NCBI RefSeq assembly: GCF_002278075.1
Contig: NZ_CP022989.1
Location: forward strand, 4,154,001 to 4,218,000
Source: Paraburkholderia aromaticivorans
GTDB lineage: Bacteria; Pseudomonadota; Gammaproteobacteria; Burkholderiales; Burkholderiaceae
Direction of reading: 5' to 3'
DNA length: 64,000 bases
Shown: piece by piece, positions 23,319 to 43,866 of the stretch
Layout of the letters: each line of letters opens with the position of its first letter
How positions within the stretch are numbered: position 1 is the first letter of the stretch
The notes under the pieces: generated by a model
Told to the model about the DNA's origin: nothing
What the model saw: the letters and a program-made list of their open reading frames with translations, nothing else
Database searches by the model: none
Position numbers and translations under genes: made by a program

Positions 23319-24788
23319 ATGAATGAAGAAATCCTGATCAATGTCACGCCGCAGGAAACGCGCGTCGCGCTCGTCCAGCAAGGCGCCGTCCAGGAACTTC
23401 ACGTCGAACGAACGCTGTCGCGCGGCCGCGTCGGCAACGTCTATCTGGGCAAGGTGGTACGCGTGCTGCCGGGCATGCAGTCCGCTTTCATCGACATCGG
23501 TCTCGAACGCGCCGCGTTCCTTCACGTGGCCGACATCTGGCATCCGCGCATTGCCGGCGAACCGCAGCATCAGGCGCCGCATCAGCCAATCGAAAAAATC
23601 GTCTTCGAAGGCCAGACGCTGATGGTGCAGGTCGTGAAGGATCCGATCGGCACCAAGGGCGCGCGCCTGTCCACCCAGGTGAGCATTGCCGGCCGCACGC
23701 TCGTGTATCTGCCGCAGGAACCGCATATCGGCATCTCGCAGAAGATCGAGAGCGAAGCCGAGCGCGAGGCGGTGCGCGCGCGTCTGACCGCCGTGCTGCC
23801 CGCCGATGAAAAAGGCGGCTACATTGTGCGCACCATTGCTGAAGACGCGACCAGCGAAGAGCTGGCCGGCGACGTCGCCTATCTGCGCAAGACGTGGGCG
23901 ACGATTCTGTCGCAAGGACAGCGGATGCCGCCCACGAGCCTGCTGTATCAGGATCTGAATCTTGCGCAACGCGTGCTGCGCGATTTCGTCAACGACGAGA
24001 CCTCGCGCATTCAGGTCGACTCGCGCGAGACGTATCAAATGCTGGCCGACTTCGCGGCCGAGTTCACGCCGGCGGTGTCGTCGAAACTGCATCACTACAC
24101 CGGCGAGCGGCCGCTCTTCGATCTGTACAACATCGAGGCGGAAATTCAGCGTGCGTTGTCGCGCCGGGTGGACCTGAAGTCGGGCGGCTACCTCGTGATC
24201 GACCAGACCGAAGCGATGACGACCATCGACGTGAACACCGGCGGCTACGTCGGCGCGCGCAACTTCGACGATACGATCTTCAAGACCAACCTCGAAGCCG
24301 CGCATACGATTGCGCGGCAATTGCGGCTGCGCAATCTGGGTGGCGTGATCATTATCGATTTCATCGATATGGAAAACGTCGAGCATCGCGATCAGGTGCT
24401 GGGCGAATTGAAGAAGGCGTTGTCGCGCGATCGCACGCGCGTGACCGTGAACGGTTTTTCGCAGCTCGGCCTGGTCGAAATGACGCGCAAGCGTACGCGC
24501 GAATCGCTCGCGCATGTGTTGTGCGAGCCGTGTCCGGTGTGCCAGGGCAAGGGGCAGGTCAAGACGCCGCGTACCGTGTGTTATGACGTGCTGCGGGAAA
24601 TTCTGCGCGAGTCGCGGCAGTTCAATCCGCGCGAGTTTCGCGTGGTGGCGTCGCAGCAGGTGATCGATCTGTTTCTCGAGGAAGAGTCGCAGCATCTGGC
24701 TATGTTGATCGACTTTATCGGCAAGCCGGTGTCGTTGCAGGTGGAGTCGAACTTGAGTCAGGAGCAGTACGATATAGTTTTGATGTAG
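23319..24788 (+). CDS. rng: Ribonuclease G
   Basis: A 489-residue RNase E/G-family endoribonuclease for 16S rRNA 5' maturation and mRNA decay. It has the N-terminal S1 domain with VGNVYLGKVVRVLPGMQSAF, the 5'-sensor region, the catalytic Asp cluster (TIDVNTGGYVG and IIIDFIDME) and the zinc-link cysteines CPVCQGKG. It lies 9 nt after maf. The last seven codons (QYDIVLM) plus stop coincide with the integration site of the 19-kb element; the stop present, TAG, is supplied by the element. Confidence 0.96.
   Translation: MNEEILINVTPQETRVALVQQGAVQELHVERTLSRGRVGNVYLGKVVRVLPGMQSAFIDIGLERAAFLHVADIWHPRIAGEPQHQAPHQPIEKIVFEGQTLMVQVVKDPIGTKGARLSTQVSIAGRTLVYLPQEPHIGISQKIESEAEREAVRARLTAVLPADEKGGYIVRTIAEDATSEELAGDVAYLRKTWATILSQGQRMPPTSLLYQDLNLAQRVLRDFVNDETSRIQVDSRETYQMLADFAAEFTPAVSSKLHHYTGERPLFDLYNIEAEIQRALSRRVDLKSGGYLVIDQTEAMTTIDVNTGGYVGARNFDDTIFKTNLEAAHTIARQLRLRNLGGVIIIDFIDMENVEHRDQVLGELKKALSRDRTRVTVNGFSQLGLVEMTRKRTRESLAHVLCEPCPVCQGKGQVKTPRTVCYDVLREILRESRQFNPREFRVVASQQVIDLFLEEESQHLAMLIDFIGKPVSLQVESNLSQEQYDIVLM
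24762..24787. repeat. attL core, 3' end of rng
   Basis: This 26-bp stretch recurs at 43841-43866 with one mismatch (CAG here, CAA there), and 20 bp (TACGATATAGTTTTGATGTA) are identical. It lies inside the last codons of rng. Immediately beyond it, GATATAG (24771-24777) and CTATATC (24797-24803) form an inverted pair, as core-type integrase sites often do. Confidence 0.88.
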
Positions 24789-24902
24789 GGTTTACCCTAT
24801 ATCAACCCGAATCACGCCATATCGCCAAGAGCCCCGCCCATCAAGGCTTCATCGTTTTCGGTGAATTTTCCCGTATCATCCTGAATCATGCGAGCGCGCT
24901 TT

Positions 24903-24930
24903 CAATTGGTAGCTAGATTGGTAGCTAGAG
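24903..24930. repeat. Left copy of a 28-bp direct repeat holding two tandem 12-mers
   Basis: CAATTGGTAGCTAG followed by ATTGGTAGCTAGAG: the 12-mer ATTGGTAGCTAG occurs twice in tandem (24905-24916, 24917-24928). The identical 28 bp recurs at 43749-43776. Position 10 nt before the int start suggests arm-type sites for integrase or excisionase, and possible autorepression of int. Confidence 0.75.
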
Positions 24931-24939
24931 TCAGGAGTA

Positions 24940-26181
24940 ATGCGGGTGGCAAAACGGCAGACCAACCTTCTTTCAGACGTTGAGCTAAAGCACTTTGTGC
25001 GCGCTCGCGTGCCCGTCGCGAAATCCGACGGTGCCGGCTTGACCTTCACACTATCGGCGGCCGGCACCGCCACATGGATTCTCCGGTTCAGTCACGGCGG
25101 CCGTCGCCACGAACTGACTCTCGGCGTGTATCCCGATGTGTCACTGACCGCGGCACGCAAACTTGCCGCATCGAAGCGCGTCGCTGTTCAGCAGGGTCTC
25201 AACCCAGCCGCGGAAAGACGGAAAGAAAAGGCCCGGAAGGATTGGACGGTGCGGCAACTGATTGCCGACTACGAAGAAAAGGTGATCCCCACCTTGGCAG
25301 ATAGCACCCAACGGAGCTATGGCCGAAACCTCAAACGAATTGAGAGCGGCATGGGCGCGCTCGCTTTGCGGGACGTATCGTCAGCGGACATCGTCGCGCA
25401 GATCGAGCGGGTAAAGGCAGGGTGGGTCGAGCTGTTCACACTTTGGTGCGTCCTGAAGGCGATCTTCAAGCATGCGGCAGGCAAGCGGCTGGTCGACACA
25501 ACGCCTTGCGCCGGCATCGTGCTGGATTCAATCATCGGCAAACGCCCCGAAGTCAAGAAACGACTGATGCTGACCGATGAGGAAATCGGGACGCTGATGA
25601 ACGCAAAGATGAACCCCGAGAACCTGCTGTCTGTGCGCGTGCTCCTCGCGACCGGCGTGCGCGCCTCTGAATTGTTTACGGCGCTGCGCGAAAACGTTTA
25701 TCTCGATGAGGCGCGCTGGCACATTCCAAAGAGTAAGACGGGCCCCGAGATGGACATTCCGTTAGCGCCCGCAGTGGTCGACTGGCTCCGACAACTCGAC
25801 GTACTAGCGGGCCAATCCAGCTATGTGCTGCCTGCACGGCTGCGCACACGCTTTGAGCGTTTTGACGGTGACGCGCACGTATCTAAAGATGCGATCCGCG
25901 AAGCTATTGACTTCTGGATCGACAACCACAAACCCAAGATCCGCCGTTTCACGCCGCACGATTTGCGCAGCACGATGAAAAGCCACATGCGCAAACTCGG
26001 CGTTGCGCGTGACATCAGCGAAATGTGTCTGAACCACAAGCTCGCCGGCGTAGAAGGCATCTACGACCAGCACACTTACTACGACGAACGGCGCGCTGCG
26101 CTCGAGCTTTGGGCCCGCTTCATCGCAACATGCCAGGCGGGCGAGAAATGGAATGTGACGCCGTTCAAAAAGACGGCATAA
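24940..26181 (+). CDS. int: Tyrosine-type site-specific integrase (P4-like)
   Basis: A 413-residue recombinase. It has an N-terminal DUF4102-type arm-binding domain (WILRFSHGGRRHELTLGVYPDVSL), a SAM-like core-binding domain near 100-190 and a catalytic domain with Arg near 241 (ATGVRASEL), Lys in IPKSKTG, HDLR near 345, His in LNHKL and Tyr380/381 in HTYYDER. It integrates and excises the element at the 3' end of rng. ATG at 24940 is 4 nt after AGGAG. The gene lies beside attL, as expected. Confidence 0.93.
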   Translation: MRVAKRQTNLLSDVELKHFVRARVPVAKSDGAGLTFTLSAAGTATWILRFSHGGRRHELTLGVYPDVSLTAARKLAASKRVAVQQGLNPAAERRKEKARKDWTVRQLIADYEEKVIPTLADSTQRSYGRNLKRIESGMGALALRDVSSADIVAQIERVKAGWVELFTLWCVLKAIFKHAAGKRLVDTTPCAGIVLDSIIGKRPEVKKRLMLTDEEIGTLMNAKMNPENLLSVRVLLATGVRASELFTALRENVYLDEARWHIPKSKTGPEMDIPLAPAVVDWLRQLDVLAGQSSYVLPARLRTRFERFDGDAHVSKDAIREAIDFWIDNHKPKIRRFTPHDLRSTMKSHMRKLGVARDISEMCLNHKLAGVEGIYDQHTYYDERRAALELWARFIATCQAGEKWNVTPFKKTA

Positions 26182-26272
26182 CGGTTTGCCGCGCCTAGCC
26201 CGACGGGGCGAATACCGGATGCCCTATCCGGTCGGCGCGGCTCCCATATAGGGCTTTGCTACAGGGCAAGCA

Positions 26273-27151
26273 ATGGAGAAGATCGAATTCGGAACGTCCG
26301 ATTTGCCGGATAATTTCAAGCTGAGCCGATACGATACTTGCGCCGGGTGGGGCGCGTCAGAATGGTGGCAGGCACTTGCCCATCGGCGCCCGATTCACGA
26401 TTGGTCTTACCTGACCCCGGAAGAGATGGCTGAGGACGAGGATAACCCCGACTTGCTCGACATTCTGCAAGGGAACGCCCTCGCTTTCCTTGAGAATCCG
26501 CAACCCATTGTTGAGGGTGAGAAGCGCCCGTTTCCGGCCTACGGCATGGATTGTCCAATTAGGGATCTTACTGGCGCAGACTATTACGACGGGTTATTCA
26601 AAATGAATAGCATGTGGTATGAGACTCACGCCGCTCTTGCGCGCCGCGCGTGTCACCGTGCCGACGTCATGCCGTTCGAGGAAATCGATGATGGGGCGGA
26701 CGGCCACAAAGCATTTTGGCAGCTTGAAAAGATTCCCGCGTGGGCACTACATCGCGAGGCGAGCGAGCCTGCAGACCGTTTTTGCATTCAGGTTCAACTC
26801 GGCGCGTCCGATGATGACCTGGTGAGCGAATTCAAGGCATGGCTCAAGCGCATCCGTAAAGAGGCGGAAATCCCACAGATACCTAAAGCGTTCGACGCCT
26901 CGCATTTCTCTGATTGGCATGAAAGGCGCCTACTGCCCTATCTGGATTTGACACTGTGGGCACGGTTGCATGGCGGTTCTTTCAATCTCACTGCGCTCGG
27001 ATATGCGTTATTTCCCGACGAAGCGCTGCGCGGCTCGAAGATGCGAGACGTAGAGCCAATGGTCCGGCGAACGATTGGACCCCGCGCTCGCTCTCTTATC
27101 AGCATAGAGGTTATCGCGACACTCAATCGCCAAGTATGGTCTTCGGCATAA
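26273..27151 (+). CDS. DUF6387-like protein next to integrase
   Basis: A 292-residue soluble protein starting MEKIEFGTSDLPDNFKLSRYD, with a Trp-rich early segment (WGASEWWQALAHRR) and C-terminal DASHFSDWHERRLLPYLDLTLWARLHGG. This pattern matches my memory of DUF6387, a family found beside integrases in many islands, with no known activity. It lies 91 nt after int on the same strand. It could help recombination or be cargo; the assignment is tentative. Confidence 0.65.
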   Translation: MEKIEFGTSDLPDNFKLSRYDTCAGWGASEWWQALAHRRPIHDWSYLTPEEMAEDEDNPDLLDILQGNALAFLENPQPIVEGEKRPFPAYGMDCPIRDLTGADYYDGLFKMNSMWYETHAALARRACHRADVMPFEEIDDGADGHKAFWQLEKIPAWALHREASEPADRFCIQVQLGASDDDLVSEFKAWLKRIRKEAEIPQIPKAFDASHFSDWHERRLLPYLDLTLWARLHGGSFNLTALGYALFPDEALRGSKMRDVEPMVRRTIGPRARSLISIEVIATLNRQVWSSA

Positions 27152-27363: not shown

Positions 27364-27582
27364 ATGTCTGCCATCCTTACCAAGGCACTCGCTAACTGGG
27401 GCGTTCTGCCCAACGACGCGCACATCGACGTGCGCACCGTCGCCGTTCTCTTTGGCTGTTCCGTTCCCACCGTCTACCGCCGCGTGCGCGCCAAGCAGAT
27501 CCCGGCACCGCGCAAGTTCGGCTCTAGCACCCGCTGGAACGTCGGCGAGATCCGCGACGCTTTGACGCCGGAGGCCGTATAA
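27364..27582 (+). CDS. AlpA-like helix-turn-helix regulator/excisionase
   Basis: A 72-residue protein with a winged MerR/AlpA-type HTH: HIDVRTVAVLFGCSVPTVYRRVRAKQIPAPRKFGSSTRW is the binding core (given here as adjoining parts). AlpA-like proteins control integrase genes or act as excisionases in P4-like elements. It is followed without a gap by the PC4-like gene, and preceded by a 16-bp inverted repeat that is a candidate operator. Confidence 0.83.
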   Translation: MSAILTKALANWGVLPNDAHIDVRTVAVLFGCSVPTVYRRVRAKQIPAPRKFGSSTRWNVGEIRDALTPEAV

Positions 27583-27894
27583 ATGACGGCCAAAAAAATA
27601 GCCCACCAAGGCAAAGCCCAGGCAGGCCGGAACGACACCGCCAATTCTAGCAGCGACACCGAATATCTGGTGCGCTTTCTGGACGCTGTGAAAAATGCGA
27701 GCGAACGCCTGCGCGTCGACCTCAAGACCTACCGCGGCAATACGTACATCGACATCCGGGTGTGGTATGTGGATGCCGCCGGCCAGTATCACCCGTCGAG
27801 CAAGGGCGTCATGCTCAAGCCGACGCTGGCGCCTGAACTGCTGCGCGGCATCGCCTTGGCGGCTCAATCCTTCGATCCGAAGGGGGCAGCGTAA
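27583..27894 (+). CDS. PC4/p15-like single-stranded DNA-binding protein
   Basis: A 103-residue protein whose second half has the PC4 C-terminal fold pattern: RVDLKTYRGNTYIDIRVWY, then an acidic-polar turn with GQYHPSSKGVMLKP and a closing helix APELLRGIALAAQ. PC4-like proteins bind ssDNA as dimers. The N-terminal ~30 residues are polar and unstructured-looking. It starts directly after the alpA-like stop, so the two are coupled. A role in element replication or transcription is inferred. Confidence 0.72.
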   Translation: MTAKKIAHQGKAQAGRNDTANSSSDTEYLVRFLDAVKNASERLRVDLKTYRGNTYIDIRVWYVDAAGQYHPSSKGVMLKPTLAPELLRGIALAAQSFDPKGAA

Positions 27895-28010: not shown

Positions 28011-28107
28011 GAGTGTATGGGCTACGCGTTGTGCGCGGCCCGATTCTCCGAAAGGAAGCCCTTCATGAAGACCCTTCTTCGTGCGCTCAATTGCGCCTCA
28101 AAAAAAC

Positions 28108-28374
28108 ATGATCAATTACACTCCGCCGACTCCGGAGGAACTTCTCAAACTGAAGTCGGAGCTCGGCAAGAGCAGCACCGAAATGGCGGAGTTGTTTGGC
28201 GTCTCGACGGGACGCCAGTGGCGCAAGTACACATCATCGACCGAGCAGCGCGACATGGGGATGCATATGCTCTTCTTCGCGGTGGCTCAATTAGAACTCG
28301 ATCCAGAAGCAATGGAGCGAGTTTTTGCAAGGATGCGTGCAATCGGCGCGACCGTCGAGATCGACAAGCCGTAA
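28108..28374 (+). CDS. XRE-type phage regulator
   Basis: An 88-residue protein beginning MINYTPPTPEELLKLKSELG with an HTH-like SSTEMAELFGVSTGRQWRKY. The helix order and length match small Cro/XRE-like phage proteins. ATG at 28108 has no clear Shine-Dalgarno. An in-frame GTG at 28081 is a poorer alternative. An ATG at 28065 in another frame has a good SD (AAAGGAAG) and its frame runs over this gene to 28547, so translational coupling is possible. Confidence 0.7.
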   Translation: MINYTPPTPEELLKLKSELGKSSTEMAELFGVSTGRQWRKYTSSTEQRDMGMHMLFFAVAQLELDPEAMERVFARMRAIGATVEIDKP

Positions 28375-28770: not shown

Positions 28771-29090
28771 CTGACTCTATCTTGAGTACGAAAGCATTGC
28801 ACCGCCTGATAGACAGTGCGGCCGGCGAATTTGCGGTTGCTGAAGAAACGCTCGTTGACCTCGGCGCCCTTTTCGAGGCAATTGTCGCCGCAACCAAGGG
28901 CCACGAGCTGGCTCATCGGTTGGCGGCGCTCGGCGCCCGGACTGCTGAAGAGTATCGCGACTCTTTCGAGGGAATGAAGGAGGGATACAACGAGCACTCC
29001 CGCAACATTGTGGAGGCGATGAAAGCGCACCGCAGTAAATGTCCGTACGTCTGCAGCGCTGAGTACTCCTCACAGGAATTCACAGCATGA
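28767..29090 (+). CDS. Hypothetical helical protein, element-borne
   Basis: A 107-residue protein starting MTDSILSTKALHRLIDSAAGEF, helical throughout, ending with two Cys in KCPYVCSAEYSSQEF. It is not recognised. It overlaps the previous gene and the primase by four bases each (ATGA), so the three genes are translated in a chain. A role in replication or its control is only inferred from position. Confidence 0.6.
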   Translation: MTDSILSTKALHRLIDSAAGEFAVAEETLVDLGALFEAIVAATKGHELAHRLAALGARTAEEYRDSFEGMKEGYNEHSRNIVEAMKAHRSKCPYVCSAEYSSQEFTA

Positions 29091-31303
29091 GCGCATATGT
29101 TGAAGAGGACCGCATCCGCGCTGCGCTGAGCCACGTTCCGGCCGATAGCCGGGACACCTGGGTGCAGATGGGCATGGCGGTCAAAGCCGAACTCGGCGAC
29201 GCGGGTTTCGATCTGTGGGATGACTGGTCGAAAATGAGCAAGGCCTACAGCGAGAGCGACGCGCGCGCGGTATGGCGTTCGTTCAAGGCGGGCGGCATCA
29301 CGATTGCCACCCTGTTCAAGGAAGCGATCGCCCACGGCTACGCCGAAAGCGAGCCGCTCAAGCCGCTCGACCCTGCCGAGGGCGCCCGCCGGCGGGCCGC
29401 GCGTGAGCAGCAAGCGAAAGAAGCCGCGGCGCAGCATGAGCGCACCCAGGCCGAAGCCGCCGCTACGGCGCACAAGCTATGGGAGGAAAGCGGCAAGGTT
29501 CGCCCCGACCACGCATATGTCTGCGCGAAGAAGATCAAACCGTACGGCGCGAAACAGTTGCGCCAGCAGCTCGTGATCAAGATCCAGGATGTCGACGGCG
29601 TGCACCATTCCGGCCAGTACATCCAGCCAGACGGCGCCAAGATATTCCAGACTGGCGGCCGTATCAGCGGATGCTTTGCGGCAGTGACAGCCGGCGCCAA
29701 GCCGAACGCCAGTACGCCCCTGCTGATCGCCGAGGGATTCGCGACCGCCTGTTCGCTGCACGAGGCGACCGGCTACCCAGTAGCCGCGGCGATGAACGCC
29801 GGCAACCTGTTGAATGTGGCGAAGGCGTGGCGGGCCAAGTATCCGCGCATGCGCATCGTGATCTGCGCCGACGACGACACCGAGACAGCGGGAAATCCGG
29901 GCATGACGAAGGCCACGGAGGCGGCGCGCGCGGTAGGCGCATTACTCGCCGTGCCCGACTTCGGCCCGGATCGCCCCGAGCGCTCCAGCGACTTCAACGA
30001 CCTGCACGCCCTCGACGGTCTCGACGCTCTGCGTCGCTGCATCGAAGCCGCGACTGCGCCCGGCGGCGTTGCCAAGCCCGCGGCGACTCGCCCGACCGCC
30101 CTGCTCACGCGCGCGAGCGACATCGTTCCGGAGGCAATCCGCTGGCTGTGGCCGGACTGGCTACCCGAAGGCAAGTTGACGCTGCTGGCGGGCTCACCTG
30201 GTACCGGCAAGACCACGCTGGCACTCGCCTTGTCTGCAACCGTATCGAGCGGCGGCAAGTGGCCTGACGGGACTGCGTGCGCGCGCACCGGTGACGTGCT
30301 TATCTGGAGCGGCGAAGACAACCCCGCGGACACGATCGTCCCCCGGTTGATGGCGGCCGGCGCCGACATGGATCGGATCCACATCGTCACCGGTAGCACT
30401 GACGCAAACGGCGAGATTCAGGCTTTCGACCCATCCAACGATATTCCCCTGCTGGCAGAGCGTCTCTCGGAAATGGGCGGCGCTGCAATGTTGATTGTCG
30501 ATCCGATCGTATCGGCGGTATCCGGCGACGCTCACCGGGTCAACGACGTGCGCCGCAACCTGCAAGCCCTGGTCGACATGGCGGCGGGCCACCGGTGCGC
30601 CGTGCTGGGTATCAGCCACTTTGCGAAGGGCACTAAGGGTAGCTCGCCGGCCGAGCGGGTTATCGGCTCTCAGGCGTTCGTGGCGCTCGCCCGCATGGTG
30701 CTGGTGGCAGGCAAAGACGAGGCTGCCGAGCGGCGCATCCTCGCGCGAGCCAAGTCCAACATTGCACCAGACGACGGCGGCGTGAGCTATACGCTCGAAA
30801 TGGCAGATGCGGGCGGCATTCAGGCAAGCCGGGTTGTGTGGGGCGACATGATCGAAGGTACGGCTCGCGACATTCTCGGCGACGTCGAGCAGCTGGACGA
30901 CGAAGAGCGAACCGGCCAGGACGAGGCTCGCGAGTTTCTCGCAAGCATTCTTTCGGACGGTCCGAAGCGCACACGCGAACTAAAAGCCGACGCAGACGGC
31001 GCTGGTTACAACTGGAAAATGATGCAGCGCGCGGCGTCGAAACTCGGCGTCGAGAAACGAAAAATCGGAATGAAAGAAGGATGGGAGTGGGCACTCCCGA
31101 AGGGGACAAGCTACGAAGAAGACACGAAGGGGACCGCTCTCTATACCGTGTCCCCTTCGGTAATCCATGTCCCCTTCGGCTCTGGCAAGGGTTTGCGGGC
31201 GGTCGAATTTCCGGCTTCTGCCGAAGGGGACATCGGAGAGAGAGTGACTCCTTCGGAGAATTTTCCTCAATCCGAGGCCGGCGAGCCGGAGGGCGACCTG
31301 TGA
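29087..31303 (+). CDS. Primase-helicase: PriCT-2, Toprim and RecA-like ATPase domains
   Basis: A 738-residue replication protein. Residues 1-80 resemble PriCT-2 (RAALSHVPADSRDTWVQMGMA; ARAVWRSFKAGGITIATLF). Residues ~205-310 are Toprim-like (LIAEGFATACSLHEATG; RIVICADDD; PGMTKATEAA). From ~350 a RepA/AAA_25 ATPase has Walker A GSPGTGKTT near 368 and Walker B-like MLIVDPIVSAV. It would prime and unwind element DNA, as the alpha/RepA-type proteins of phages and satellites do. The last ~80 codons are low in complexity and contain the iteron-like repeats at 31097-31234. Confidence 0.87.
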   Translation: MSAYVEEDRIRAALSHVPADSRDTWVQMGMAVKAELGDAGFDLWDDWSKMSKAYSESDARAVWRSFKAGGITIATLFKEAIAHGYAESEPLKPLDPAEGARRRAAREQQAKEAAAQHERTQAEAAATAHKLWEESGKVRPDHAYVCAKKIKPYGAKQLRQQLVIKIQDVDGVHHSGQYIQPDGAKIFQTGGRISGCFAAVTAGAKPNASTPLLIAEGFATACSLHEATGYPVAAAMNAGNLLNVAKAWRAKYPRMRIVICADDDTETAGNPGMTKATEAARAVGALLAVPDFGPDRPERSSDFNDLHALDGLDALRRCIEAATAPGGVAKPAATRPTALLTRASDIVPEAIRWLWPDWLPEGKLTLLAGSPGTGKTTLALALSATVSSGGKWPDGTACARTGDVLIWSGEDNPADTIVPRLMAAGADMDRIHIVTGSTDANGEIQAFDPSNDIPLLAERLSEMGGAAMLIVDPIVSAVSGDAHRVNDVRRNLQALVDMAAGHRCAVLGISHFAKGTKGSSPAERVIGSQAFVALARMVLVAGKDEAAERRILARAKSNIAPDDGGVSYTLEMADAGGIQASRVVWGDMIEGTARDILGDVEQLDDEERTGQDEAREFLASILSDGPKRTRELKADADGAGYNWKMMQRAASKLGVEKRKIGMKEGWEWALPKGTSYEEDTKGTALYTVSPSVIHVPFGSGKGLRAVEFPASAEGDIGERVTPSENFPQSEAGEPEGDL
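31097..31234. repeat. Iteron-like cluster, candidate replication origin
   Basis: CCGAAGGGGACA or close variants occur five times in 138 bp, in both orientations. The cores are GAAGGGGACA at 31099-31108, GAAGGGGAC at 31126-31134, TGTCCCCTTC at 31149-31158 and 31168-31177, and GAAGGGGACA at 31223-31232. They lie inside the 3' end of the primase-helicase gene, where the encoded protein is unconserved-looking. Cis-located origins near such genes are known in phage satellites. Confidence 0.6.
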
Positions 31304-32493: not shown

Positions 32494-33057
32494 ATGCAGA
32501 CCATTTATGAACTCTCGCCCGAGTACAAGGCAGCGTTCGACACTGTCAACAAAATGCGTGCTCGCATCGACGAGCTGAATCAGCTGGAGGGCGTCCAGCG
32601 GATCGCCCTCGCCGAGGGTCCCGCCATAGTTCAGCATGCAGCGACGCCGCGCGATTTGGCGTTGAAAGTCCTGAACGGCGAGGCCGCCGACAATTCGCAG
32701 CGCGACGAATTCGAAAAGATGCGCGCGGACAACGCCAAGACAAAGGCCGACCTTGAAATCCTTCAGCGCGGGGTGATGCCCAACCACGAAGCAATGTCGA
32801 TCTTGCGCCAACGCGTGACCGCAGGGCGGATGAAACAGGATGACGTGCGCCGCGCGACAGAGAAGGTCGCCAAGGCGGCCCTTCAGATGGCGGCGGCTCA
32901 GAAGGAAATCGCCAACCTGTGCCTCGATCTGACGTCCGCCGGCTTCGAGGATTTCAGCGAATCCATGCTGTTCAGCATCGAGCCGAATGTGACCGTACCG
33001 GACGCGCTGGAGGTGTACGCAAAGCGCATCCGGGGCGTCGCAGGTATCGCCGAGTAA
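32494..33057 (+). CDS. Hypothetical coiled-coil protein
   Basis: A 187-residue largely helical protein. Residues ~10-35 (YKAAFDTVNKMRARIDELNQ) and ~130-165 (ATEKVAKAALQMAAAQKEI) look coiled-coil. AGTGAGGAAG precedes the ATG. It lies in the unrecognised block between the primase and the tail remnants. Not recognised; possibly a structural or scaffolding-like accessory protein. Confidence 0.55.
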   Translation: MQTIYELSPEYKAAFDTVNKMRARIDELNQLEGVQRIALAEGPAIVQHAATPRDLALKVLNGEAADNSQRDEFEKMRADNAKTKADLEILQRGVMPNHEAMSILRQRVTAGRMKQDDVRRATEKVAKAALQMAAAQKEIANLCLDLTSAGFEDFSESMLFSIEPNVTVPDALEVYAKRIRGVAGIAE

Positions 33058-33087
33058 CCCAACCTATCACCCGACAGGAGCATCAAT

Positions 33088-33345: not shown

Positions 33346-33376
33346 ACGCCCAGTCCAACTTTTTGAGAGATACGAA

Positions 33377-34261
33377 ATGATGAAATTCTTCAATCGAGCC
33401 GACCTGAACAAGGACGACGAAAAGCGGATCCGCGAGATCCTTAAAAGCCCGGAGATCGAGTCAATCCTTGACCGTGCCGAACAGGCGGCGGTCGCGCATC
33501 GCGCCGAGCTTCGAAGGAAGCTTGACACGGTCGCAGAACGCCACGAAGCAGCAATTGCGGAGGCAGGCAAGGCGCACGCCGCAGCAATCCGGCACCGCGA
33601 AGAATCGGAGGAACAGCAGCGGCGCGCTTGGGAGCTTCAAATGCAGGCTGGCGGCGCCGAATATGCAGCGACCCATATCCGCGATGCCGAGAAAAATAAA
33701 TTGCTTGCGGAACTCATGGGGACGGCCGATGCGCGGCTCCGCGACTTCGGGGATCTGCTCGGCAACCAGTGGCAGGCGCTTCGCCACTTGGGTTCGATTA
33801 CTGAGTACAAGCACAAGTCGTGGACCGGCCAAACCACGGTCGAATACTCGACCAATACGGCGGAGGTGAATGCGCTTATGGCTCAGATCGAGGCAGCACA
33901 GGCAGCCATCAAAGAAATGGCGCTGCTGCCGTTGACTTCGGCAGAGGTGGCAGAGCGCCTGACCGCATTGACTCACGAGTTTCAGCCGAAGCTGGAGGCG
34001 TTCGCGCTCCCCTGCCCGCGGCTTAATGAGAAAGGCGAGGTCGAGCTGAGCAAGGAGCGAGTGGGTCTCGATGACACGCTGCGCGCGAACGGTTTGCCGA
34101 CAGATGCCGCGCCCAAGGCAGGGCCGGCGCCGCGTGTTGTGCGGGAGCCTGCGCGCCAGCACAAAGCGCCCACGCCTGCCCGCGCGGTGACTTCGGCCAC
34201 CGGGAAGGCAGCCGCAGCAGTGACAACGGCGAAGCGCGTGTTCAAGGGACTGCGCGTCTGA
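33377..34261 (+). CDS. Hypothetical long coiled-coil protein
   Basis: A 294-residue protein starting MMKFFNRADLNKDDEKRIRE. Residues ~30-110 form a charged coiled coil (RAELRRKLDTVAERHEAAI; HREESEEQQRRAWELQMQ). A middle domain carries DFGDLLGNQWQALRHLG. The Pro/Ala/Lys-rich tail is flexible. An upstream open frame from 33116 overlaps the previous gene and is rejected. Not recognised. Confidence 0.58.
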   Translation: MMKFFNRADLNKDDEKRIREILKSPEIESILDRAEQAAVAHRAELRRKLDTVAERHEAAIAEAGKAHAAAIRHREESEEQQRRAWELQMQAGGAEYAATHIRDAEKNKLLAELMGTADARLRDFGDLLGNQWQALRHLGSITEYKHKSWTGQTTVEYSTNTAEVNALMAQIEAAQAAIKEMALLPLTSAEVAERLTALTHEFQPKLEAFALPCPRLNEKGEVELSKERVGLDDTLRANGLPTDAAPKAGPAPRVVREPARQHKAPTPARAVTSATGKAAAAVTTAKRVFKGLRV

Positions 34262-34333: not shown

Positions 34334-34747
34334 ATGCTGACCAAAGAGCAAATTCTTGCGGCGCGGAACCGCAAGACCGAATACGTCGCAATCACCGGCC
34401 TAGGAGACATGCTTGGCTTGCGCTCAATGTCCGGTGCGGAGCGCGACAGCTATCTCGATCTGGTGCGCGGCGCGCCGGCGGGTGATAGCTATGCTGACGC
34501 GGCTCTCATCGCCCGCACGGCGGTCGACCTTTCCGGAAGCCTCATTTTTTCGGACACGGACATCGCGCCGCTGCTCGAGCTCGACGCAACCTTGCTGGCC
34601 GATCTCGCCGACGAAGCCGCGCGGGTCAACCGAATTGACAGGGATTCGAGCAGCAACGGCACACTCACACGGAACGGCGCCGCAACTCTCGTCCACGACA
34701 ACAACGGAACGCTCCGCACGCGTTCGGGGGTATGGAAATGCCAGTAG
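34334..34747 (+). CDS. Tail assembly chaperone-like protein, probable chimera
   Basis: 137 residues. Positions 1-100 follow the pattern of siphophage tail assembly chaperones: MLTKEQILAARNRKTEYVAI, MSGAERDSYLDL, a central LSGSLIFSDTDIAPLLELDA and ADLADEAARVNRI. The remaining ~37 residues (DSSSNGTLTRNGAATLVHDN, NGTLRTRSGVW) look unlike a chaperone and more like the beta-rich C-terminus of a tail fibre or tip protein. The overlap with the next gene also matches that context. I infer an in-frame fusion by deletion; homology was not tested. Confidence 0.6.
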   Translation: MLTKEQILAARNRKTEYVAITGLGDMLGLRSMSGAERDSYLDLVRGAPAGDSYADAALIARTAVDLSGSLIFSDTDIAPLLELDATLLADLADEAARVNRIDRDSSSNGTLTRNGAATLVHDNNGTLRTRSGVWKCQ

Positions 34748-35064
34748 GACTTCAGGCGTGGGACGAGAACGGCAATCTCATCTTCGATGGGACATACCGG
34801 GTGATGCGAATCGTCAACTCGGTGTATCTGGACGGGTCAGTTCCTAATGGGAGCCTGCCGCCCAATGACATCCTGAAGCAAGGCGGCTGGGTGTCTTTTC
34901 AGCCGGATAACACTTGCGGAGACGGCTATCTATCCGGGGGCGTCATTACCCCGCGATTCTCGATTGACCAGAACACCGGCATCCTAAGTTGGTCGTATGC
35001 CGCAAAAAACAGCGCGCAATACGACATCTATCAGAAAGGCACGCTCTTTTACGGAGCCAGCTAA
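34738..35064 (+). CDS. DUF6453-like phage tail-region protein
   Basis: A 108-residue beta-rich protein starting MPVGLQAWDENGNLIFDGTY. Short phage proteins with the MPxGLQxxDxxGxL opening sit directly after tail tip genes, and I recall them as DUF6453. ATG at 34738 lies about 9 nt after a GGGGG patch; ATG 34732 is an alternative. It overlaps the chimeric gene by 10 nt. Function unknown, probably part of, or produced with, the tail tip. Confidence 0.58.
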   Translation: MPVGLQAWDENGNLIFDGTYRVMRIVNSVYLDGSVPNGSLPPNDILKQGGWVSFQPDNTCGDGYLSGGVITPRFSIDQNTGILSWSYAAKNSAQYDIYQKGTLFYGAS

Positions 35065-36539: not shown

Positions 36540-36543
36540 GGCC

Positions 36544-38151
36544 GATTCTGTTGAAAAAGTCGTGTTTTGGTTTGGGTCCCGGGCTTCGGCAGTAAGTTTC
36601 GAGTTGGGGAGTTCAGCGAGGCGGCGGTCTTGCAACGTGCGACGCCCCCCGTTTCTCGTCATGTAGCTGCCTGGTTTGCCTGCTTACCTTCAGGCGTGAG
36701 CCACTTGGCCATTCTTCGCAGATTTTGCGCAGTTGCTGCCATCAGAAACTCATCATGGGCACCGCTTGGACCACGCAGTCGCAAGCGATCAAGTTTGAGA
36801 ATGCGCTTGAGGTGAGCGAAGAGCATTTCCACCTTCTTTCGCTGCCGGCGCGACTGTTTGTATTCGGGGGTTGCCGCGATGCGTCGAGCCTCATCGCGGG
36901 CGGCTTCATGGATGCTGCGCGTGATTTTGCGAAACGACATATTCGGGCAGCATTGATTCTTAATCGAACATCGGTTGCAGTTCTTTTCGCTCGATCGATA
37001 CACGATAGTGTCGGCTTTCGTGATGTGCGTGCGTGGATTCTTCAGTGGACGCCAGTCGCAGCGCAGCGCGTTCCCTGCAGGACATCGATACTCGTTGGCC
37101 TCTTCATCCCAGATGAATTCGCTACGAGAGAATGTATTGTCCTTGCGCTCTGTTTTATCCCAGACTGAAACGTGCGGCTCAATTTGTTTCTCTTCAACCA
37201 TCCAGCCAAGCAGTGCTGCTGTGCCGTATGCGGTGTCACCTACCAGTCGGCGAGGCTTCAGGTCCCGTTGGTGTTGAACACGATCGATCATTGTCCTGGT
37301 TGATTCGACCTCTTGTGACCGGTTCGCCGGCGTCGCTTCAACATCCACAATGATCCCTGCCTGCAGATCGATCAGGTAATTCGTCGAGTAGGCAAAGAAC
37401 GCAGGACCGCCCGGAGCGGCCGTCCATCGTGCAGCAGGATCAGTCAGGGATATCTTCTTTGGAGGTGCCGAAGACGATGCTGGCTCGGACGTATCTGCGG
37501 CCACCGGATTGGCTTGCTCCAGTGCCTCAAGATATTCCCGCACAGCGCGGCTCTGGCCGTCGGCACGTCCCCAGTCGATAGGCTCGGTTCCCGGCACTCC
37601 GCGAGCAGGACTCGCGTCCGCCTTGATGATGCTTGCGTCAATGGCGAATCCCTCGCCCTTGACGAGGCCCTCGGCCATGCAACGACTCAGCACAGATTCG
37701 AATACGTGGCGCAACAGGTCGCTATCGCGAAAGCGACCGTGACGGTTCTTTGAGAACGTCGAGTGTTCCGGTACGGCGTCTTCCAGACCCAGGCGGCAGA
37801 ACCACCGGTATGCGAGGTTCAGATGCACCTCTTCGCATAGACGTCGCTCGGACCGGATGCCAAAGCAGTAACCCACGATCAACATGCGAATCATGAGCTC
37901 CGGGTCAATCGATGGCCGACCCATCGGGCTGTAGAACGGCGCGAGGTGTCGGCGCAGATCTCGCAGATCAAGGAAGCGATCGATGCCTCTCAACAGGTGC
38001 GATTGCGGGACGTGGTTATCGAGGTTGAACGAGTAGAAGAGCTTGTCCTGTCCGCTATCCAGTCGACCCATCATGACGATTCGCTCCCGTCGTTTGATGT
38101 CTTCCAGGATACCCAACATTCCGCATCGCCGCCGACTTTTTCAACAGAATC
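36544..38151 (-). mobile_element. IS1182-family insertion sequence, 1608 bp
   Basis: Perfect 19-bp terminal inverted repeats GATTCTGTTGAAAAAGTCG (36544-36562) and its complement (38133-38151) enclose one transposase gene. GGCC is duplicated outside each end (36540-36543, 38152-38155), a 4-bp palindromic target duplication. It appears complete. Confidence 0.88.
36659..38074 (-). CDS. IS1182-family transposase
   Basis: About 471 residues. N-terminal DUF772-type region (LDNHVPQSHLLRGIDRFLDL; YCFGIRSERRLCEEVHLNLAYRW), DDE catalytic core (FAIDASIIKADAS; RRLVGDTAYGTA), a cysteine-containing insert (NCNRCSIKNQCCP) and the C-terminal KKVEMLFAHLKRILKLDRLRLRG with the catalytic Glu. ATG at 38074 follows GGGAG; an in-frame ATG at 38119 is also possible. 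The frame is intact, so the element could be active. Confidence 0.9.
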   Translation of the reverse strand: MMGRLDSGQDKLFYSFNLDNHVPQSHLLRGIDRFLDLRDLRRHLAPFYSPMGRPSIDPELMIRMLIVGYCFGIRSERRLCEEVHLNLAYRWFCRLGLEDAVPEHSTFSKNRHGRFRDSDLLRHVFESVLSRCMAEGLVKGEGFAIDASIIKADASPARGVPGTEPIDWGRADGQSRAVREYLEALEQANPVAADTSEPASSSAPPKKISLTDPAARWTAAPGGPAFFAYSTNYLIDLQAGIIVDVEATPANRSQEVESTRTMIDRVQHQRDLKPRRLVGDTAYGTAALLGWMVEEKQIEPHVSVWDKTERKDNTFSRSEFIWDEEANEYRCPAGNALRCDWRPLKNPRTHITKADTIVYRSSEKNCNRCSIKNQCCPNMSFRKITRSIHEAARDEARRIAATPEYKQSRRQRKKVEMLFAHLKRILKLDRLRLRGPSGAHDEFLMAATAQNLRRMAKWLTPEGKQANQAAT

Positions 38152-38385: not shown

Positions 38386-39030
38386 CTATGGCTGCGGTGC
38401 GCTCCCACTGTACCAAGCGAGTATTAGAGCGGGGTCGATTCCATTGAAACTGTATGGAGTCATGTGAATCTGCCCATCTCTGACTAGATGCGCCATCGGG
38501 TACTTTACGTCTCGCGGATAGTTTGGTCCTCGATTCACCGAGATGAGAAGCCTAAGGATGGGCCATAACATGCATGCGTAACTGATTGGGTCTTCATCTT
38601 CGTCACCAGGAAAGAGCGTGCCGGAAATAATCCCGCACAAGGCGCCGTTTTCGTCGAACACGGGACCGCCGCTCATTCCGCCGTCGAAGCGGGCCGCAAT
38701 GCGGTAGCAGGGGAAAGTGAAGTTTCCAGCGGGCTGCCCGCTCGGCAAGATTTCTTCAACCACTCCAGTTGACGCCGTCGGCTTATCGTTCAACTCCATA
38801 TGGTAGTTCCCGTCGTCGGCTGGTCGTGTGCTGACCTCCGAACTGTGATACCCAAAGGCTGCAAGCGGAGTACCAACAGGTGGAGGACCGAACACAAGCG
38901 GGGGGCTTCGCCAATTCAACATAGTGCCTGGGCTGCTTCGGAATAAGGCGAGATGCAGGACAGAGATGTCAGTATCCGGGCTGTTCCATGCGGCTACGAC
39001 TTGATATACGACGTACTTTGGACCGGGAAG
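38386..39030 (-). pseudogene. Trypsin-like serine protease, C-terminal part (split gene)
   Basis: 214 codons plus stop with the Asp region NSPDTDISVLHLAL and the Ser loop RFDGGMSGGPVFDENGALCGIISG-type segment of chymotrypsin-fold proteases. The frame begins exactly at the boundary of the 39031-40962 insertion sequence, with LPGPKYVVYQVV. The missing N-terminus with the catalytic His lies at 40963-41205. Joining the two halves without the element gives one uninterrupted frame of about 295 codons. It is cytoplasmic-looking (no signal peptide). Confidence 0.8.
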
Positions 39031-39285
39031 TATCTGATCTCGAGAGTGCCGACTTCTCGCTTGTTTTTTCTCGGACTCGCTCCGGCCTCGGCGCTTTTCA
39101 TCTGAACACCGATCCATTTCCTGGTGATGTGATCCGGCGTGGCCGGTTGCCTTCGTGCACCAGATTCATCGTCAGGCGGCAGTGATCAAACTCACGTTGC
39201 TCTATTCCTCAATCAATGCCTTGTTGATGCTCTCGTAGTTGACTTGCAGGGGCTCACATCGCTCAGCGCATCGCCCACGAAGGAC

Positions 39286-39474
39286 TCAGTGCGGATCTTC
39301 CTGTCCCGCGTATCGCTCGTCTGTCAGTATGCCCCGAACTGGTTCGGGAGGGCCTTGCAATGGGGGGGGGGTGAGTGACCCCGCGCGTCTTTCATCTATC
39401 GCGGCGAGCATCGCCTTGATCGTCTCAATGAGTCTTTCGATTTGAAGGAGCCGTTTGTGCTGCCTATATTGCAT
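39286..39474 (-). CDS. Possible 62-residue protein inside the IS, uncertain
   Basis: A minus-strand frame starting MQYRQHKRLLQIERLIETIK and continuing through the 10-G tract (as PPP) to EDPH. The helical N-terminus looks protein-like, but plus-strand frames over the same bases are also open and no Shine-Dalgarno is convincing. It could be an IS accessory peptide or chance. Confidence 0.3.
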   Translation of the reverse strand: MQYRQHKRLLQIERLIETIKAMLAAIDERRAGSLTPPPLQGPPEPVRGILTDERYAGQEDPH

Positions 39475-39519
39475 ATTCTATGCGATACTTCGTAGTGCAA
39501 AATAATGTAGAGAACAACA

Positions 39520-40920
39520 ATGAAACTCTGGACGGCTTGGTGGGACGCGATCTGGCTGCTACGCCCAGCGTTTTCTCGCCTGCGCAGCTTCATGTGGTTC
39601 GCAACTGTCGTCGCTGGCTTGACTGTGCGCACCGAGTTGCTGGGCGTGACCAGCATCGTGCGGGCTCTCAAACTGCGGCCAGCCCTGTACAACAAGCTGC
39701 GTGACAGCCTGCATAGCGACGCCGTGCAGCTCGATCAGCTTTCAGCGCTGTGGACCCAGACGGTGCTGCGCCTGTTCCCTGACCCGCTACGCGTCAATGG
39801 CCGACTGGTTTTGGTCGGCGATGGCATCAAGGTGGCCAAGAGCGGCAGGAAGATGCCCGGCGTCAAGCTGCTGCATCAACAGTCCGACTCCAACACCAAG
39901 CCCGAATACATCATGGGGCACTCGATGCAGGCGGTCAGTATGCTTGTGCGGGCCGCCCAGAGCGTCTTCGCCGTACCGCTGGCCGTGCGTATTCACGAAG
40001 GTCTGGTGTGGTCCAACCGCGATCGGCGTACCTTGCTCGACAAGATGATCTCGCTGCTTGGCATCGTCTCGGTGCAGCAGCCGTTCTACTTCGTGGCCGA
40101 TGCCTACTACGCTGCTGGCAAGATCGTCAAAGGCCTGCGCGATCGGGACAACCACCTGGTCACACGCGTGAAGTCCAATGCAGTCGCCTGTGCCCCGTAC
40201 GTGCAGCAGGGACCGCGCAAACGGGGGCGTCCCAGGCGCTACGGTGAGAAGATCAAACTCAAATCGCTACTGGCTGATCCCCAGGCCTTGCAATCCGCCC
40301 CCAGTCCGGTCTATGGCGAGCACAATGTCACCATTCACTATCGGGTCTGCGATCTGCTGTGGCCGGCGTACGGTCAGCTGGTTCGCTTCGTGGCAGTGAC
40401 TCACCCAAGCAGGGGTTCGTGTCTGCTGATGTGCACCGACCTCAGTCTGGATGCCGTCGAGATCATCCGCCTGTATGGATTGCGCTTCAAGATCGAGTAC
40501 AGCTTCAAACAGGCGGTGCATCGGATCGGCACATTCGCGTACCACTTCTGGATGCAGGACATGAAGCCGCTCGCCCGCCGAAACGGCGATCAATACCTTC
40601 ATCGCGAGTCACTCGAGTACCGCAACGCCGTCAAGCGCAAGATCCACGCGTACCACGTCTTTATGCACGCTGGCATCGTCTGTCAGGGACTGCTTCACTA
40701 TCTGGCAGCGGTGTTCCCTTCACAGGTCTGGAGTTCCTTTGGATCCTGGCTGCGCACTATCCGCCCCGGCATCCCTCCATCGGAGTTGGTCGTCGCCAAC
40801 GCACTACGTCAATGCCTGCCCGAATTTCTCGTGAATAGCGCCAAAACCCATTTCTTCGCAAAATTCATCGCAGAAAGGCAGGACCCCGACACATTCGAGA
40901 TGTTCCGCCTGGGCACATAG
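39520..40920 (+). CDS. IS4-superfamily-like DDE transposase
   Basis: A 466-residue transposase starting MKLWTAWWDAIWLLRPAFSR. DDE-type blocks: LVLVGDGIKVAKSGRKMPG (first Asp), FYFVADAYYAAGKIV (second Asp) and IIRLYGLRFKIEYSFKQAV with the Tyr-Arg-Glu pattern of IS4-like enzymes; the usual Lys spacing is not met exactly. The C-terminal His-rich AYHFWMQ and LLHYLA segments are family-like. The frame is intact. The family name is approximate. Confidence 0.82.
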   Translation: MKLWTAWWDAIWLLRPAFSRLRSFMWFATVVAGLTVRTELLGVTSIVRALKLRPALYNKLRDSLHSDAVQLDQLSALWTQTVLRLFPDPLRVNGRLVLVGDGIKVAKSGRKMPGVKLLHQQSDSNTKPEYIMGHSMQAVSMLVRAAQSVFAVPLAVRIHEGLVWSNRDRRTLLDKMISLLGIVSVQQPFYFVADAYYAAGKIVKGLRDRDNHLVTRVKSNAVACAPYVQQGPRKRGRPRRYGEKIKLKSLLADPQALQSAPSPVYGEHNVTIHYRVCDLLWPAYGQLVRFVAVTHPSRGSCLLMCTDLSLDAVEIIRLYGLRFKIEYSFKQAVHRIGTFAYHFWMQDMKPLARRNGDQYLHRESLEYRNAVKRKIHAYHVFMHAGIVCQGLLHYLAAVFPSQVWSSFGSWLRTIRPGIPPSELVVANALRQCLPEFLVNSAKTHFFAKFIAERQDPDTFEMFRLGT

Positions 40921-40962
40921 CCGAAAAACCACGCCTGAATTCGGCACTCTCGAGATCTGATA

Positions 40963-41205
40963 TAGGCGCACGGAATATTTCGTGATTTCTTTTGCGCCGT
41001 CCTCTGCGTCTTCGACGCCGAATTTGGTCGTAATTTCGTCGAGTACGTGTTTTGCGGTCAACGCGACGAATGATCCGATAACCGTGGCGGTCCCAATGAC
41101 ATAGGAGTCGCCACCTTCGAATTCAACTAGGACCCGTAGAGCGATTTCAGACGCTGGCGTGTCTGAAGGTTGTGCCACGAAAGTAGATTTCTTGTGGATC
41201 GGCAT
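40963..41205 (-). pseudogene. Trypsin-like serine protease, N-terminal part (split gene)
   Basis: 81 codons from ATG 41205 (MPIHKKSTFVAQPSDTPASE) to the IS boundary, with the catalytic His in VALTAKHVLDEI preceded by SYVIGTATVIGSF, the usual beta-strand before His57. Beyond 40963 the frame runs into the IS inverted repeat and antisense transposase sequence. The C-terminal part is at 38386-39030. No signal peptide is present. Confidence 0.78.
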
Positions 41206-42641: not shown

Positions 42642-42848
42642 ATGCGCAATACGATTAAGACGCGGTCGGGCCGCGTGCTCGAATTGCCGACGCCCGAGGA
42701 AAACGAGGCAATCAATCGCGGCATTGCCGCCGACCCAGATACGCACGAAGCGTCGGATGAGGACTTCAGAAAGATGAGGCGCCGCAGCGCCGCCCCGACT
42801 CAATGCTTACCAAGAAGCGCAGGCAGGTTTGAGAATAAGCGCAACTGA
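42642..42848 (+). CDS. BrnA-like antitoxin-type protein, orphan
   Basis: 68 residues: MRNTIKTRSGRVLELPTPEE, NEAINRGIAADPDTHEASDEDFRKM. The opening and the ENxAINxGIAADxD pattern resemble small antitoxin-like proteins of the BrnA group. GGGAGG lies 10 nt before the ATG. No RelE/BrnT-like toxin gene is next to it; the downstream space is taken by the minus-strand gene, with which its end overlaps. The last ~16 residues look unlike the family. Confidence 0.5.
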   Translation: MRNTIKTRSGRVLELPTPEENEAINRGIAADPDTHEASDEDFRKMRRRSAAPTQCLPRSAGRFENKRN

Positions 42849-43522
42849 TAGATTTTCCATCTCGCGCAGATAGTCGCCCACCGGCTTGGTCTATGCGCCG
42901 CGAATTGAGGGCTTCGCCCCCGGTGCGGCACGAAATCACGCGGTATGGCTTCGATGCCGTCAAACATCGATGGCTGGCACTCTGCCACGATCTCCGCTCG
43001 ACGTAATCGCGAATCAAGCATTCCGACCGTGATTGCCAAATGGGTTGCGAGCGTATCGCGATCGCCGTCAAAGTGATCCAGCGAGCGAAAATATGCGACT
43101 GCTTCGGCGAACCTGCCCGCCAAGTAACTCTCGCGCGCTCCCCACTCTTGCACAAGCTCCATCGCTTGTTCTGGTTCATAGGCGTCCGGCGCGGTCAGCC
43201 GGGCCGCTATGGAATTTGGAATAAAGTCGCCGTCCTCGTGCGTTTGTTCGTGATCGAGTTGGACCGCGAACCGCATTTCCCGATTCGCAAACTTGCCGAA
43301 CGCTTTGCGAAGCTTCGACAGGATTGCCTGCTGGAAGATCTCGTCCTCGGGTTCATACTCGACACCGTGCTCTTCGCGAATATCTTGAGCCGCCAACCAC
43401 GCTTCAGTCTTCAGGTCATCGACGGACTGTTCTCCGCGGGTTCCATACGCGATGCGCTGGATCTGTCCGAGCAGTGGCGAAATGAGCCGCGCAAAGAAGG
43501 AATTGTCTCGGTTGGGTGGCAT
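42800..43522 (-). CDS. Hypothetical protein, possibly sigma-factor-like
   Basis: 240 residues starting MPPNRDNSFFARLISPLLGQ. The N-terminal part (SVDDLKTEAWLAAQDIREEH) and a later helix pair (RDTLATHLAITVGMLDSRLRRAEIVAE) are spaced like region 2 and an HTH of sigma-70-type proteins, but the match is weak. The C-terminus (FAAHRPSRWATICARWKIY) is basic. GAGACAATT lies upstream with a poor SD. It could instead be an unrelated element protein. Confidence 0.45.
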   Translation of the reverse strand: MPPNRDNSFFARLISPLLGQIQRIAYGTRGEQSVDDLKTEAWLAAQDIREEHGVEYEPEDEIFQQAILSKLRKAFGKFANREMRFAVQLDHEQTHEDGDFIPNSIAARLTAPDAYEPEQAMELVQEWGARESYLAGRFAEAVAYFRSLDHFDGDRDTLATHLAITVGMLDSRLRRAEIVAECQPSMFDGIEAIPRDFVPHRGRSPQFAAHRPSRWATICARWKIYQLRLFSNLPALLGKH

Positions 43523-43676: not shown

Positions 43677-43706
43677 CCCAGTTCTAATCTGGAGCAGTTA
43701 TCGAGG

Positions 43707-43736
43707 CCCGCCGGAGAGATCCGTGCGGGTTTTTTT
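43707..43736 (+). terminator. Rho-independent terminator near the right end of the element
   Basis: CCCGCCGG-agagat-CCGTGCGGG with one bulge, directly followed by seven T residues. Confidence 0.85.
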
Positions 43737-43748
43737 GTACCCGGGTCG

Positions 43749-43776
43749 CAATTGGTAGCTAGATTGGTAGCTAGAG
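43749..43776. repeat. Right copy of the 28-bp direct repeat
   Basis: Identical to 24903-24930, with the 12-mer ATTGGTAGCTAG at 43751-43762 and 43763-43774. It lies 70 bp inside attR, in the same orientation as the left copy. An inverted pair TATCCGT/ACGGATA follows it before the core. Confidence 0.75.
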
Positions 43777-43840
43777 GCTTTTTTCCCCTTCTTAATATCC
43801 GTAAAACAACCGACGGATAAGGTTTTTCATGGATTTAGTC

Positions 43841-43866
43841 GAGCAATACGATATAGTTTTGATGTA
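43841..43866. repeat. attR core, displaced 3' end of rng
   Basis: GAGCAATACGATATAGTTTTGATGTA followed by A, so this copy also encodes EQYDIVLM with a TAA stop. It matches 24762-24787 except for one synonymous base. What lies to its right is the original chromosome downstream of rng. Confidence 0.88.

Follow-up and report, generated by a model that had tools for sequence, protein, structure and literature searches.

The attachment site carried by an integrating element, attP, usually holds a replacement for part of the target gene (PMC10111431, in the part of its text available to us). In the islands described there, which enter icd or tRNA genes, attP replaces the part beyond the crossover and the gene stays functional. 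We analysed a 64,000-nt stretch of Paraburkholderia aromaticivorans (GCF_002278075.1, contig NZ_CP022989.1, positions 4,154,001-4,218,000, forward strand; hereafter the window), in which an element appears to have entered the 3' end of rng, the gene for RNase G. The arrangement resembles that of the icd and tRNA islands, as far as the consulted text of PMC10111431 describes them, and differs in its target, in a replaced stretch that would comprise the last codons only and in the occurrence of two polarities at one target.

Integration targets collected by TIGER/Islander were 33.8% tRNA or transfer-messenger RNA (tmRNA) genes, 43.4% coding sequences and 22.8% intergenic, the coding figure pooling 3' ends with other coding positions (PMC12424338). 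These proportions do not support an earlier note on this DNA (the original prediction), which had held protein-coding 3' ends to be rarer targets than tRNA genes.

We interpret the locus, with a probability of about 0.93, as a site-specifically integrated element of 19,079 bp that is satellite-like and worn by insertion sequences (IS), and that would belong to a tyrosine-integrase family using the 3' end of rng, restoring that end and occurring in two polarities. The sequences show a direct-repeat core, an integrase and paired arms whose distances hardly vary; this anatomy recurs in many hosts, and relatives of a different carrier have empty sites.

Results

To delimit the element, we read its repeats directly. 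The sequence TACGATATAGTTTTGATGTA has exactly two copies in the window, at 24768-24787 and 43847-43866, spaced 19,079 bp apart; about 0.002 such 20-mer repeats would be expected by chance within 64 kb (approximately 2e9 pairs over 4^20). The repeat extends to 26 bp with a single mismatch (G at 24767, A at 43846), and a 221-bp query spanning the left copy matched only these two places in the 8.9-Mb genome. Both copies read Y D I V L M stop in the same frame, the left ending in TAG and the right in TAA. The bracketing copies of the rng 3' end around 19.1 kb and the two stop codons behind identical terminal residues were thus as the original prediction had described them. It had lacked a second exact repeat, of 28 bp, that lies inside both ends and consists of two ATTGGTAGCTAG copies, a tandem GTAGCTA motif. 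GC content per kb was 0.55-0.66 within the element versus 0.61-0.71 outside, and ARAGORN found no tRNA or tmRNA genes in the window.

The integrase gene lies at one end of the element, adjoining the left core, and its product carries both Arm-DNA-bind_3 and Phage_integrase domains; we take Arm-DNA-bind_3 to be equivalent to DUF4102 and to denote P4-type integrases. We aligned ten related integrases and scanned a genome collection, obtaining 88 pattern matches, of which 85 encode a relative, and kept the best 80. Among these best loci, 33 carry rng immediately upstream of the integrase gene, complete or truncated where the contig ends, with the last codons of rng forming the core (class A, as in the window), two have an rng-like core alone (L241 and L284), 12 have the core inverted (class B) and 33 have no rng core. 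In a by-eye reading, the gene upstream ends in ...CNL-stop at 14 of the non-rng loci (L269, when checked with Pfam, proved to be ZapD) and resembles the start of a gene that we take to be xth at eight; the remaining 11 were short or gave no clear reading.

In an unrooted tree of 85 integrase rows, one branch (support 100/99) separates the 36 rows with other or unassigned targets from all 49 rng rows. The rng rows come from Burkholderiaceae, Oxalobacteraceae, Alcaligenaceae, Azonexaceae, Rhodocyclaceae, Zoogloeaceae, Sphaerotilaceae, Comamonadaceae and Nitrosomonadaceae, several of these hosts being metagenome bins according to the tree labels. Among 399 sampled genomes from the order there was one further match at E 1e-120, likewise behind rng, and a family sample of 398 genomes yielded 17 matches at E 1e-90. 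Plasmids and phages gave one record each at E <=1e-60, both below 44% identity. In the genus (140 of 143 relatives read), paired arms were present in 8 of the 140, compared with 6 of 6817 control windows. The cores, the adjoining integrase and the related loci behind rng together support the claim that this is an integrated element with rng as its target.

Several neighbouring observations concern target use more widely. The 14 CNL-stop loci (including L269, 9055-9810) look like another sister branch, placed at the 3' end of a cell-division gene. Upstream of the integrase gene in L263, L264 and L272 is a sister-branch core like the first codons of xth. In L047 and L050 a more distant integrase (approximately 44%) follows other coding-like sequence (...LTSIEINGTD...), perhaps another protein-coding target. 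Decay or tandem insertion is suggested at some rng sites: in L109 both of two cores are followed by remnants of an integrase, and G040 contains three cores. In L220 (G043:C2 585204-588285), a partial second copy of the rng end (83% over 253 bp) lies 2.8 kb behind the first.

We then asked what the element brings to rng. The rng frames of all 33 class A loci end at the same codon. TTGATGTAGGGTTTACCC, with the element-side TAG, is likewise found at the end of rng in P. nodosa (L222), Caballeronia arvi (L223) and Burkholderia sp. D-99 (L229), in each case ahead of a related integrase. TTGATGTAG and GGGTTTACCC, which bear on the origin of the region 24773..24788 of the window, recur in related elements, and GGGTTTACCC follows TAG in these three as it does in the window. 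On the other side, the displaced core copy of the nearest relative, G122, ends in TAA. Because TAG with GGGTTTACCC recurs in other elements and the flank of TAA is common to G122, the TAG would be the element's and the TAA the host's.

At the level of sequence, the cleanest proof that the rng end is replaced is the comparison of P. nodosa with uninterrupted rng genes. In its class A locus (L160), a second core lies 16.2 kb away from the first. The displaced rng end and its flank matched the uninterrupted rng end of a related species (L189) at 310 of 320 aligned positions, and those of L173, L217, L203, L208 and L202 at 302-308 of 320. The working rng reads ATA GTT TTG ATG, whereas hosts with the nearest ends have ATC GTG CTC ATG, giving four synonymous, element-side base changes. 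A 1.9-kb segment in G002, in which no integrase was found, has the same attL/attR pattern with other codons. The proposal that the element carries a replacement for the end of RNase G is thus supported, P. nodosa being the case in which the host-type displaced copy and the element-side changes are both seen. The suggested comparison with empty sites came out clean for P. nodosa and G002; for the window it reached only G122, the nearest relative, which is itself occupied and whose flank behind the displaced core aligns with the window's right flank at 71% over 352 columns.

These differences also bear on where strands would be exchanged. If the position is the same across the family, the G/A mismatch at 24767 bounds it on the left, and the attL/attR differences in G002 (GAT/GAC) and P. 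nodosa (ATA/ATC) bound it on the right, which places the exchange within TACGA. A crossover between GTA and G/A, where the 20-bp core stops on the right, by an element without replacement codons that leaves rng unaltered, would fit the window taken alone, where the copies are identical up to GTA. We consider this highly improbable, because in both P. nodosa and G002 differences between attL and attR appear left of this position, with a displaced copy of the host type, because class B attR sites diverge already to the left of TAC, and because TTGATGTAGGGTTTACCC of the window is found in other elements.

The same gene end is entered in two polarities. In class A the integrase adjoins rng; in class B it is at the far end, and rng lay at the opposite end in all five class B genomes checked (G324, G345, G366, G225 and G122). 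The P' arms lie at -92/-80 in the window and L319 and at -91/-79 in P. nodosa; in G122 (class B) they are at +79/+91, the mirror of -92/-80 about TAC|GA. At 27 of the 33 class A loci, the integrase-side arm lies 137.5-139.5 bp from the TAC|GA axis; in class B the distance was 124.5-126.5 bp in 10 of 12 and 137.5-138.5 bp in the other two.

We mapped polarity on a tree reduced to 50 of the 85 rows, which kept every one of the 14 class B rows, 30 of 35 class A rows and six outgroup rows. The class label requires six changes on this tree, and the starred branches alone force three changes. Nine of the 14 class B rows form one well-supported group, and the other five stand among class A rows; L039 (class B) and L229 (class A) are sisters with support 100/96. 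Holding the five scattered rows together, a grouping that we named after seeing the tree, was rejected (p-AU, from the approximately unbiased test, 3.2e-6). That the two polarities are old, separate lineages, each of which adopted rng, would agree with the group of nine and with the arm distance of 10 of 12 class B loci, approximately 12 bp shorter than in most of class A. The interspersed rows, the L039/L229 pair, the forced label changes and the rejected grouping nevertheless make it unlikely, as does the agreement of the integrase-side flanks of G122 and the window beyond the core (GTTTACCC.ATATCA; compared by eye). Instead, it seems that the core was flipped in place, with the arms at fixed distances, more than once. 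We think it probable that one integrase family can reverse its polarity of entry at a single gene end, its attP core having been flipped repeatedly about TAC|GA while the arms stayed fixed, the element each time still bearing the rng end on the proper side.

Such reversal may have been enabled by a core that is quasi-palindromic, with the rng tail itself as one of its halves. In 8 of 17 elements the other half is more like TATTGTTTTGATGT than shuffled sequences are (p <=0.02); the window's own half is not (p 0.20). In the host tail half, 9 to 14 of 14 positions match across the 140 relatives. The inverted-repeat character of the core is suggestive only.

Other candidate marks of the element did not hold. 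The rng stop is TAG in 76, TAA in 40 and TGA in 24 of the 140 relatives, and TAG does not flag occupied sites, since it is not enriched among the 13 relatives bearing element traces (8, versus 76 of 140 overall). The TAG/TAA difference on which the original prediction drew is real in the window and weak evidence by itself, since stops vary among relatives. An element-supplied terminator for rng is not general: terminator-like hairpins were present behind the core at 6 of the 33 class A loci (18%) versus 71 of 660 shuffles (11%), with none in the window.

The coordinates of the element and its genes are given in Table 1.

Table 1. Features of the rng locus and of the inserted element in the window
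Feature	Coordinates	Strand	Evidence or remark
rng (RNase G, 489 amino acids, open to stop; target gene)	23319..24788	+	NF008689 691.8 bits, cut-off 594 (NCBIfam); Pfam RNase_E_G
attL core, 26 bp	24762..24787	+	One mismatch to attR, last 20 bp exact
TACGA, putative strand-exchange region	24768..24772	+	Assumes a single position across the family
Putative element-supplied rng end	24773..24788	+	Remainder of D codon, I V L M, stop
P arm, tandem GTAGCTA	24903..24930	+	GTAGC starts +141 and +153 from core TAC
Tyrosine integrase (GTG 24946 a possible start)	24940..26181	+	Pfam Arm-DNA-bind_3, Phage_integrase; phrog_1
DUF6387 protein, adjoins the integrase gene	26273..27151	+	Family match
AlpA/excisionase-like helix-turn-helix protein	27364..27582	+	HTH_17; phrog_66; TIGR01764 excise under its cut-off
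PC4-domain protein	27583..27894	+	Domain match
phrog_20491 protein	28081..28374	+	Weak match to transcription regulator family; relatives in L223, L229
Primase-helicase	29087..31303	+	PriCT_2, Toprim_3, AAA_25
Two open reading frames (ORFs) without assigned function	32494..34261	+	Common to P. nodosa element in swapped order
Phage-tail-like ORFs	34334..35064	+	Tail assembly chaperone-like phrog_344 1.5e-17; phrog_2427 (unknown function) 2.2e-15
IS1182-family transposase	36659..38119	-	NF033551 417.5 bits, cut-off 270
Trypsin-like ORF 38386-39117 with ORF 40804-41205	38386..41205	-	Trypsin_2 on first ORF alone
IS701-like transposase ORF, between the two preceding ORFs	39520-40920	+	NF049999 155.5 bits, below cut-off 170
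Distal-end gene	42800..43522	-	No family match
P' arm, same 28-bp repeat	43749..43776	+	GTAGC at -92 and -80 from core TAC
attR core	43841..43866	+	Repeat match
Putative displaced original rng end, stop TAA	43852..43867	+	Flank common to displaced copy of G122
RHH_8 regulator, chromosomal neighbour, reference for rng-site comparison	44183..44626	+	Pfam

Several of these genes recur elsewhere. The AlpA-like, PC4 and primase-helicase genes behind the integrase gene are also found in C. arvi and Burkholderia sp. D-99, and partly in Pandoraea and P. nodosa; relatives of the primase-helicase occur in the C. arvi, Burkholderia sp. D-99 and Pandoraea loci, with none in the P. nodosa element. A DUF6387 relative follows the integrase gene in 11 of the 80 related loci (tblastn). 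Four of the 140 genus genomes (L117, L128, L139 and L218) have a relative of the distal-end gene no more than 19 kb beyond rng, and the RHH_8 neighbour has a match in 85 of 144 genus genomes, with rng not always adjacent. We infer that the two ORFs flanking the IS701-like transposase were once a single gene. At approximately 43594-43676, a short remnant encodes ...LMPYHHERLADDEDEDEDEND, which by eye resembles the end of a 61-amino-acid ORF at L160 14035-14220 in the P. nodosa element. For defence genes, PADLOC gave only weak matches, in 10 proteins. A Pfam scan of 25 element ORFs recognised no relaxase or type IV secretion genes that would mark an integrative conjugative element.

The smallest relatives are satellite-like elements of 12 kb, and the largest are IMG/VR contigs that reach 49 kb. 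The same integrase profile matched 37 IMG/VR contigs: rng precedes the integrase gene in 23, 18 of them on contigs of 35-49 kb; L303 is class B; L319 is attP-like; and 12 are neither, in three cases because the contig starts at the integrase gene. L319, a metagenome contig, has P' arms, core and P arms before the integrase gene (approximately 7300-7620); its 18.9 kb contain no match to rng, the appearance expected of an unintegrated attP.

The window element could be the decayed remnant of a full prophage, with its tail genes left after deletions and insertion sequences, and the long IMG/VR contigs with rng before the integrase gene, the two transposases of the window element and an S49 peptidase in the P. 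nodosa element all suit such an origin; S49 peptidases include phage head proteases. We find this possible, though doubtful. The elements of P. nodosa (16.2 kb) and G122 (12.4 kb) are also small, and each has an open integrase gene, some tail genes, among them a tape measure gene, and for replication a gene of the DUF3987 or VapE-like kind. G122 has in addition a baseplate hub gene, and the P. nodosa element a gp10-like gene just below cut-off. In the small rng elements at L160 (10040-12883) and L081 (7181-9935) these tail genes are a tape measure gene in both and a baseplate hub gene in L081. No capsid, portal or large terminase gene was recognised among the 11 (P. nodosa) and 5 (G122) of their ORFs that were scanned. 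We call the window element satellite-like, a term that stops short of satellite.

Discussion

A simple scheme would account for the element at rng. The integrase would bind the GTAGCTA arms and the core, and strands would be exchanged at TACGA, within the Tyr-Asp codons. Since attP would carry a copy of the sequence beyond TACGA, the integrated rng would end in element-borne codons and stop with its protein unchanged, and the original rng end would be displaced to the far side of the element. In some members the core would have been turned over between arms that keep their places, which would put the integrase at the far end with the rng end still in frame.

Several observations weigh against this interpretation. 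No empty site of the window's species or nearest relative was seen, because that relative, G122, is occupied. Both core copies in the window carry ATA, a rare Ile codon that occurs at this place in 4 of 140 relatives, including P. nodosa with its element, so the window's element-borne codons are indistinguishable from the host's inside the 20 bp. Element traces, either a pair of arms where expected or remnants of an integrase, were found in 13 of 140 genus relatives, and terminal codon choice in the rng of the 140 showed no clear oddity of the kind that element-derived scars would leave. Class A arm distances include outliers (three at 127.5-128.5 bp, L245 at 150.5 and L291 at 94.5 bp, with no arm in L243), and the class A integrases L258, L284, L287 and L291 have stops, long branches and unsure placement. 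No excision product or circle was observed, L319 being only read as attP.

On this reading, rng, whose product acts in RNA decay and rRNA maturation, joins the set of genes whose function an integrating element has to preserve, and as a target it is common to islands, satellite-like elements and viral contigs across several Pseudomonadota families. Repeated in-place reversal of the core would, if true, offer a natural experiment in which the direction of integration could be traced to core sequence and arm geometry, and it can be tested because close class A and class B pairs exist, such as L229 and L039. Another candidate use of the rng-targeting integrases is to insert DNA at a conserved chromosomal site with no loss of the gene.

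Neither rng as a target nor polarity switching at one attB was named in the titles and abstract openings searched, the target tables of TIGER/Islander and Mageeney 2020 lying outside that search. We found no literature joining RNase G, integration site, genomic island and Burkholderia, and the word rng does not occur in the available parts of PMC12884075 or PMC10111431.

Among known systems, P4-like satellites and phage-inducible chromosomal islands (PICI) are small and carry integrase, AlpA-like and primase genes in one direction. The window element is small and has the same layout; we did not file it with them, because no hijack gene was recognised among the 25 ORFs scanned with Pfam. Unlike these satellites, relatives of the rng element hold tape measure and other tail genes, and no gene for packaging hijack or capsid remodelling was recognised. 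The sole phage record at E <=1e-60, Burkholderia phage BcepC6B, has an integrase with 41.8% identity, and its GGTAGCTAG arm motif flanks a presumed core on both sides, as in the rng elements. Its core differs and is like the start of what is presumably xth (ATGAAAATCGCAACTTG). In BcepC6B (L339 1690-2010), a purine-rich stretch and an ATG precede the core, so this phage may supply a new start for an xth-like gene.

The nearest parallel that we found is the dusA-specific integrase family, in the part of PMC4482086 available to us. There, as at rng, one protein-coding gene serves as the target across many bacteria, for islands of diverse cargo as well as prophages, and the gene acquires an element-derived end. 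The dusA family differs in that it enters its target at the 5' end, unlike the 3' end used at rng, and the word "orientation" is absent from the main text of that paper.

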